From: Lutjanus erythropterus
Taxonomy: Eukaryota; Chordata; Actinopteri; Lutjaniformes; Lutjanidae
DNA length: 64,000 nucleotides
Assembly: GCA_020091685.1 (NCBI GenBank)
Contig: CM034605.1
Coordinates: 7,301,019-7,365,018, forward strand
Direction of reading: 5' to 3'
Under the pieces are notes generated by a model that was not told the DNA's origin, ran no database searches, and saw only the letters and a list, made by a program, of their open reading frames with translations. Both the position numbers and the translations under genes were made by a program. Shown piece after piece: positions 9,625-50,211 of this stretch (the stretch's first letter is position 1; each line of letters starts with the position of its first letter).

Positions 9625-9788
9625 GTTTGGATGACAGCCTGCAGCAGTATGTGAGCAACTTTGAGCGGGAGAAGATCAGTGGGGAGCAGCTCCTGAAGAT
9701 CACACATCAAGACCTGGAGGAGCTCGGCGTGGCCAGGATTGGACACCAGGAACTGGTGCTGGAGGCTGTCGATCTACTCTGTGCTTTG
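9625..9788 (+). CDS. cnksr3: cnksr3 exon: SAM domain
   Basis: The acceptor is TGCCCAG and the donor GTCAGT. The exon enters in phase with two bases completing a Gly codon, then reads [19 protein letters not shown] and on through [16 protein letters not shown] to LLCAL. This is the bulk of the CNK SAM domain. The in-frame ATG at 9543 upstream of the acceptor belongs to the intron and is not the gene start. Confidence 0.95.

Positions 9789-50211: not shown

Follow-up and report, generated by a model that had tools for sequence, protein, structure and literature searches.

A continuous CNKSR3-IPCEF1 reading frame with an optional early stop in Lutjanus erythropterus, and an apparently split second copy in the same genome

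CNKSR3 and IPCEF1 form one continuous reading frame in the 64-kb stretch of Lutjanus erythropterus DNA analyzed here (the window; G000:C15:7301019-7365018, in a genome of 937.6 Mb and 444 contigs). The continuous frame is real, and the reading of the locus as one gene is right in substance. We conclude, with a probability of about 0.8, that the locus is one ancestral CNK scaffold gene, from which two products would be made by a choice at the donor of exon 13 (29652/29653). The basis for this conclusion is the exon chain, its phases, a strong donor, a conserved stop tail and the homology of both halves to CNK2-like genes.

The exons were fixed by their splice sites after the + strand had been read in three frames. 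The CNKSR3-IPCEF1 chain consists of 22 exons (9625..50211, + strand) in one frame of 964 codons followed by a TAA stop. AG acceptors precede all 22 exons, GT begins all 21 introns, and all joins are in phase. The exons, together with two doubtful candidates and the read-through tail, are as follows.

9625..9788, + strand: exon 2, SAM, phase 1 to 0
16110..16312, + strand: exon 3, CRIC, phase 0 to 2
17944..18031, + strand: exon 4, CRIC, phase 2 to 0
22937..22978, + strand: exon 5, phase 0 to 0
24396..24515, + strand: exon 6, phase 0 to 0
24684..24743, + strand: exon 7, PDZ, phase 0 to 0
25484..25552, + strand: exon 8, PDZ, phase 0 to 0
25951..26097, + strand: exon 9, end of PDZ, phase 0 to 0
28148..28272, + strand: exon 10, CNK2/3 domain, phase 0 to 2
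28796..28983, + strand: exon 11, CNK2/3 domain, phase 2 to 1
29087..29173, + strand: exon 12, CNK2/3 domain, phase 1 to 1
29402..29652, + strand: exon 13, spliced form, phase 1 to 0, strong GTCAGT donor
29653..29691, + strand: read-through tail (12 residues) and stop, end of the short CNKSR3, conserved in the C14 copy
33586..33623, + strand: doubtful exon 14, phase 0 to 2, good splice sites, breaks the frame alone
35981..36023 (alternative donor after 36041), + strand: doubtful exon 15, would restore the phase, not coding-like
41582..41635, + strand: exon 16, symmetric cassette of 54 nt, phase 0 to 0, in-frame ATG at 41612
42099..42138, + strand: exon 17, linking exon of 13 residues, phase 0 to 1
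42624..42793, + strand: exon 18, start of PH, phase 1 to 0, ATG at 42635
45415..45488, + strand: exon 19, PH, phase 0 to 2
45745..45816, + strand: exon 20, PH, phase 2 to 2
45913..45977, + strand: exon 21, end of PH, phase 2 to 1
46986..47110, + strand: exon 22, phase 1 to 0
47304..47664, + strand: exon 23, phase 0 to 1
48265..48455, + strand: exon 24, C-terminal region, phase 1 to 0, homologous to CNK2-like exons
50011..50211, + strand: exon 25, C-terminus ETSL, stop TAA

A first-pass annotation of the same DNA had described a chain of 24 exons in phase. The exon start at 9625, the donor after 29652, the stop at 29689-29691, the starts at 41582 and 42624 and the end at 50211, all given there, are exact to the base, and 22 GT-AG exons in one frame stand. 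The other two, as we infer, are the link exons at 33586 and 35981, which are doubtful. Exon 1, with the start codon and the N-terminal SAM residues, was found neither in the 64-kb window by motif nor in the 10 kb upstream of it by tblastn with a guessed N-terminus.

The 964-codon product carries SAM, CRIC, PDZ, CNK2/3 (CNK2_3_dom) and PH domains in this order, each above the curated Pfam cut-off. The CNK2/3 domain (PF06663) scores 319.7 bits. Thus, the CNK2-like architecture that had been read from SAM through PH to an IPCEF1 C-terminus is confirmed, and it is the architecture of CNK2 (CNKSR2). By sequence, the best solved-structure match of residues 1-292 is the SAM-CRIC-PDZ part of CNK2 (9k1l, E 1.4e-134), and that of residues 563-661 is the PH domain of IPCEF1 (5mr1, E 5.8e-41, or 1.4e-42 in another comparison). 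The features of the CNK3 branch of the CNK family, namely the SAM/CRIC/PDZ order, the CNK2/3 domain and the CNK3-type stop tail, are all present. The feature of a CNK3/IPCEF1 fusion, a single open frame over both halves with consensus splice sites, is present as well.

Exon 24 is taken as the putative cytohesin-binding (CRAC) region, judged from its place. No Pfam model matched this C-terminal region, and homologues of the exon were detected on contigs C14 (5.6e-19), C11 (2.3e-10) and C21 (7.4e-7) of the same genome. The chain ends with ETSL (50197-50211), a class I PDZ-binding-like C-terminus that is missing from the C14 copy, where the frame of exon 25 ends with DAAAV. This end recalls the PDZ-binding motif of CNK2A reported in the available part of PMC10272126.

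The last base of exon 13 is 29652 (phase 0, CTG/GTCAGT); when the exon is left unspliced, 12 more codons are read up to the stop at 29689-29691. The donor was scored against splice-site profiles derived from 19 exons that are not in dispute. Its score of 11.05 is the second highest among the 21 donors of the gene and is reached by 4 of the 3728 GT sites on the minus strand and by two non-exon sites on the plus strand. By chance, an exon of 290 nt should contain about 0.02 donors of this strength.

The 12-residue tail was then compared with that of the C14 copy, which reads GGWLARLRLLSH followed by a stop. Although 16 of the 36 nt differ (4, 3 and 9 at codon positions 1, 2 and 3), 12 residues and a stop are found in both. 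When an equal number of changes was placed at random, under a simple model with no base-composition or transition bias, a similarity score as high as the observed one arose in 0.015% of 20,000 trials, and in 0 of 20,000 when the two donor codons were left out; by plain identity (6/12), the value is 3.1%. The read-through past the donor differs in the CNK2-like loci, with VSPLRLS and a stop in C11 and VCTQSFKNLFTFQ and a stop in C8. Thus, the tail belongs to the CNK3 line, and it presumably agrees with that of human CNK3. The early stop of CNKSR3 looks real, judging from the apparent conservation of the 12-codon tail in the duplicate, with changes mostly at third positions. Poly(A) signals follow 29691 (ATTAAA at 30493, AATAAA at 31359 and two more before 33586), and they are too common to serve as evidence.

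A genome search with PF06663 gave the window locus and loci on C14, C11, C8 and C21, and a CNK1-like locus at C15:16.98 Mb came up when exons 16-18 were used as the query. For the comparison of paralogs, 220 kb of the genome were fetched, with the C8 locus up to exon 20. The C11, C21 and C8 loci are CNK2-like genes with PH exons, and exon 24 was seen in C11 and C21. The CNK1-like gene (L030, C15:16974001-16984000) has PDZ and PH exons, and its PH exon starts in phase 1.

In both CNK2-like loci where exon 13 was found, its donor has the same phase (the exon runs from phase 1 to 0): CAT/GTCAGT in C11 (8.9) and CCT/GTATGT in C8 (5.7). Since another GT inside the C8 exon scores higher (6.6), the end of exon 13 in C8 is our assignment. 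A lysine-rich linking exon of phase 0 to 1 stands before the PH exon in three of the four non-CNK3 loci (C11, C21 and C8), and the PH exon (exon 18) has a phase-1 start in all four, as it does in the window. In the CNK1-like locus, neither the linking exon (exon 17) nor exon 13 was found; exon 13 was not found in C21 either. The counterparts of exon 17 in the CNK2-like genes are assigned by motif, place, splice sites and phase, since exons of this length give no significant E-values (0.98 in C8, 5.5 in C21 and none printed for C11). Thus, the CNK2-like paralogs share with the window the phase at the end of exon 13, the linking exon and the phase of exon 18, whereas they possess no CNK3-kind stop tail past the donor, and exon 16 was not found in them. 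Since the intron phases are shared across the PH boundary, descent is the best explanation: IPCEF1 represents the rear half of a CNK gene rather than a neighbour that fits by chance.

In a tree of PH and exon-24 residues, in which the rows of C8 and human IPCEF1 hold the PH part only, the window, C14 and human IPCEF1 were separated from C8, C11 and C21 with a support of 99/99, and the window was paired with C14 (80/82). Raw PH identity does not make this separation, since the window shares 55/88 residues with human IPCEF1 and 59-61 of 97-98 with the CNK2-like loci. The PH domain is thus of the IPCEF1 type by its best PDB match (5mr1), as expected for a separate IPCEF1, and by the tree grouping, with a raw identity equally high to CNK2-like PH domains. 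The difference from a separate IPCEF1 is that the first IPCEF1 exons in the window are in frame with the upstream CNK exons.

The same genome possesses a second CNKSR3 and IPCEF1 pair, in the same order and on the same strand, at C14:32507100-32547926 (L029, L009-L012). This copy, which has no joining splice site, was absent from the first-pass annotation. Exons 2, 4 to 13, 18, 19, 20, 24 and 25 were identified, exon 10 weakly (E 0.54). Exon 3 was not seen, and a run of N lies at its expected place. The assignment of the copy to CNK3 also rests on exon 13, which contains the block ...VDHIRGS...NSATIPYQE and the stop tail. At the end of this exon, GGAGGC stands in place of GTCAGT, and no donor inside the exon scores above 2.8. 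Neither exon 16 nor exon 17 was found in the N-free 7 kb before exon 18. This stretch contains 20 lysine/arginine-rich splice pairs; of the 12 listed, none is similar to exon 17, and a single one has phase 0 to 1. The C14 copy is thus apparently split: the donor is lost, the linking exon was not found and the stop tail is kept. Exon 20 of this copy is strongly diverged (AITASHPLVVTIFIAAESIADMN).

The best acceptor of exon 18 in C14 (9.3) puts the ATG out of the ancestral phase, and a poor acceptor (-1.5) located 11 nt further would keep that phase. The view that C14 is frame-shifted is weakened by this second acceptor. Since exon 12 can be joined to exon 18 in phase through it, a rare joined form might still be produced from C14.

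The stop tail conserved in both copies would also suit two neighbouring genes, of which CNKSR3 would end at 29691 and IPCEF1 would have its promoter in the 12-kb intron, the donor being a relic with little or no use. The ATGs in frame at 41612 and 42635 are possible starts of IPCEF1 only, and the C14 copy apparently exists as two genes. In the available part of PMC10272126, CNKSR3 and IPCEF1 are two of the four human CNKSR genes. A stretch at 39.0-39.6 kb in the intron between exons 13 and 16, about 2 kb before exon 16, is CpG-enriched yet AT-rich (observed/expected up to 0.89); a second CpG-enriched stretch lies at 43.3-43.7 kb (0.71). Furthermore, exon 16 has its own acceptor and could therefore be fed by a private 5' UTR exon, and its coding signal comes mostly from the ATG on: 8.8% of intron pieces score as high as the 30 nt before the ATG, and 1.3% as high as the part from the ATG onward. 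Both the 39-kb stretch and the low coding score upstream of the ATG led us to weight this alternative higher. However, an unused donor should decay, as in C14, whereas the window donor remains among the strongest of its gene. The CNK frame is kept by exons 16 and 17. Moreover, no CpG-rich stretch lies directly at exons 16-18, where 400-bp windows between 40.8 and 43.0 kb give observed/expected values of 0.13-0.42. Two separate genes are thus unlikely at this locus.

Under the one-gene reading, the two halves have to be joined across the 12-kb intron. Exon 16 is in phase 0 at both ends, and exon 17 leads from phase 0 to phase 1, the phase in which exon 18 begins. Thus, the end of exon 13 at 29652 (phase 0) joins exon 16 at 41582 directly; exon 17 at 42099 is equally in phase. 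The phase match of exons 13 and 16 by itself has a chance of 1 in 3. The codon score of exon 16 is equalled by 0.8% of open intron pieces and that of exon 17 by 1.2%, but the codon test says little for exon 17, in which all three frames give similar scores. Beyond the locus, no convincing match to exon 16 was found in the genome (best E 1.75) or in the other CNK loci. What we take to be the N-terminus of human IPCEF1 aligns from the exon 16 ATG onward, and we regard this as a lead only.

The first-pass annotation had led the main full-length form from 29652 through 33586 and a further exon to 41582. The exon at 33586-33623 is flanked by good splice sites, contains no stop in the incoming frame and has a codon score equalled by 5% of open intron pieces. 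However, its 38 nt lead from phase 0 to phase 2, whereas 41582 needs phase 0, and used alone it shifts the frame. The exons 35981-36023 and 35981-36041, whose acceptor is fair, were tried as rescuers of the frame and rejected, because 61% and 85% of open intron pieces, respectively, score as high. When the peptide encoded by exons 13 to 16 was searched against the genome, three matches fell inside the locus and one elsewhere (E 0.14). In the fetched loci, the best match to the 33586 and 35981 exons (0.093) was on the other strand and outside the gene. The minus strand of the 64 kb contains 3 strong splice pairs, 1 of them open; 0.2-0.6 pairs like that at 33586 are thus expected by chance in 12 kb. 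This route is quite improbable as the main form. The paralog phases, the linking exon and the conserved tail sustain the earlier claim of a single ancestral CNK gene that has an optional early stop; the route via 33586 is not sustained.

A joined form made by skipping exons 13, 16 and 17, from exon 12 (phase 1) to exon 18 (phase 1), which could also keep the C14 copy fusible, agrees with the matching phases in the window and with the strong exon 12 donor (11.0) and second, phase-fitting exon 18 acceptor of C14, but it is very improbable, as it leaves the 29652 donor and exon 17 of the window without purpose and needs in C14 an acceptor of -1.5 versus 9.3 for the site 11 nt upstream.

The first two coding exons of SCAF8 lie at 52129-52158 and 53121-53204 (+ strand); the joined piece matches PDB 3d9j (E 1.8e-16). 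In the window, CpG content is highest at the start of SCAF8 (52.0-53.0 kb), and the third exon is at C15:7373865. No SCAF8 match was detected in the fetched C14 stretch or elsewhere on C14. In human, SCAF8 is placed on the opposite side of CNKSR3 from IPCEF1 in the available part of PMC4549309. Thus, the gene order differs in the window. SCAF8 is described as a suppressor of early poly(A) sites (PMC6579486, in excerpt). This role would fit the poly(A) choice needed by the early stop of CNK3, which we regard as a coincidence unless tested.

A perfect TGA array (43970-44046, 25.7 copies, 100% match), likely a polymorphic marker, is located in the intron between exons 18 and 19. The stretches 7889-8461 and 48664-49350 contain broken reading frames that are alike by eye (for example, ...SIGDGSGL... 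and ...SVGDMSGL...); they are probably copies of one interspersed repeat, and their pieces gave no Pfam match. Six reading frames from introns and flanks and the SCAF8 piece had no match in Pfam either, Rfam gave none at gathering thresholds, and no relatives were found in bacterial genome contigs or viral contigs. Opioid-receptor exons were looked for in the window and in the part of C14 that had been fetched, with no convincing hit (best 0.84). Inside the CNK2-like region of C11, C11:24920052-24920306 (L019) resembles a seven-helix receptor (E 1.6e-4 to an opioid receptor).

That the joined form is a peculiarity of fish is not supported by the literature, in which a single CNK3/IPCEF1 protein is reported for mammals (Attar et al. 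2012, PMID 22085542, as cited in excerpts of PMC3599651, PMC9104363, PMC6996405 and PMC4549309). In the available parts of two sources, IPCEF1 is called "a gene co-translated with CNKSR3" (PMC4549309) and CNIPF is treated as a CNKSR3-IPCEF1 fusion (PMC7138185). According to excerpts, HGF-driven Arf6 activation and migration depend on the mammalian protein (PMC3599651, PMC6996405), which, as a scaffold, brings cytohesins to the membrane (PMC3599651, PMC9104363). As in mammals, CNKSR3 lies upstream of IPCEF1 in the window, and the frame reads as one protein that would have a CNK front and an IPCEF1 back. The difference is that the fish locus is accompanied in the same genome by a duplicate apparently without the junction; the likeness to mammals is drawn at the level of the protein. 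Open-licence literature on fish or on the fission of CNKSR3-IPCEF1, looked through by titles and abstract starts and not thoroughly, gave no comparison of the C14/C15 type. The joined CNK3/IPCEF1 is thus established biology met in a further species; what seems to be new is the comparison between the two copies.

According to the preferred reading of one CNK gene with a choice at exon 13, use of the donor would join exon 13 to exon 16 (or 17) and onward to the exons for the PH domain and the C-terminal region; the product would be a full-length, CNK2-like CNK3/IPCEF1. If the donor were ignored and polyadenylation occurred in the 12-kb intron, 12 more codons would be added and a short CNK3 without the PH domain or the C-terminal region would be formed. 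IPCEF1 alone could start at ATG 41612 or 42635 from an internal promoter. We infer that the fused CNK3/IPCEF1 mRNA is made in Lutjanus erythropterus, and that both mRNAs are made with the choice of poly(A) site deciding between them. By analogy with the published mammalian work, the product would be a scaffold for cytohesin/Arf6 signalling.

The two copies may represent a gene fission in progress, to which we give even odds: the window would have kept the donor, whereas in C14 neither the donor nor the linking exons nor the common frame would have survived, leaving two genes. Exon 13 is internal in CNK2-like genes, and in the CNK3 line the read-through of its donor would have become a conserved alternative C-terminus. 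The 54-nt exon 16 with its own ATG would then have appeared, letting each half live alone. After the duplication, the choice between splicing and stopping may have turned into a fixed division of labour between the two copies.

These results support, at the level of sequence, CNKSR3 and IPCEF1 as halves of one CNK-type gene. This bears on the reading of expression and disease data in which they are treated as two genes, for example those for the 6q25.2 kidney-disease region (PMC4549309, in its available part). The window and C14 copies provide a natural test of whether the joined protein has a function beyond its two halves. In addition, they test how an optional early stop can become a gene split.
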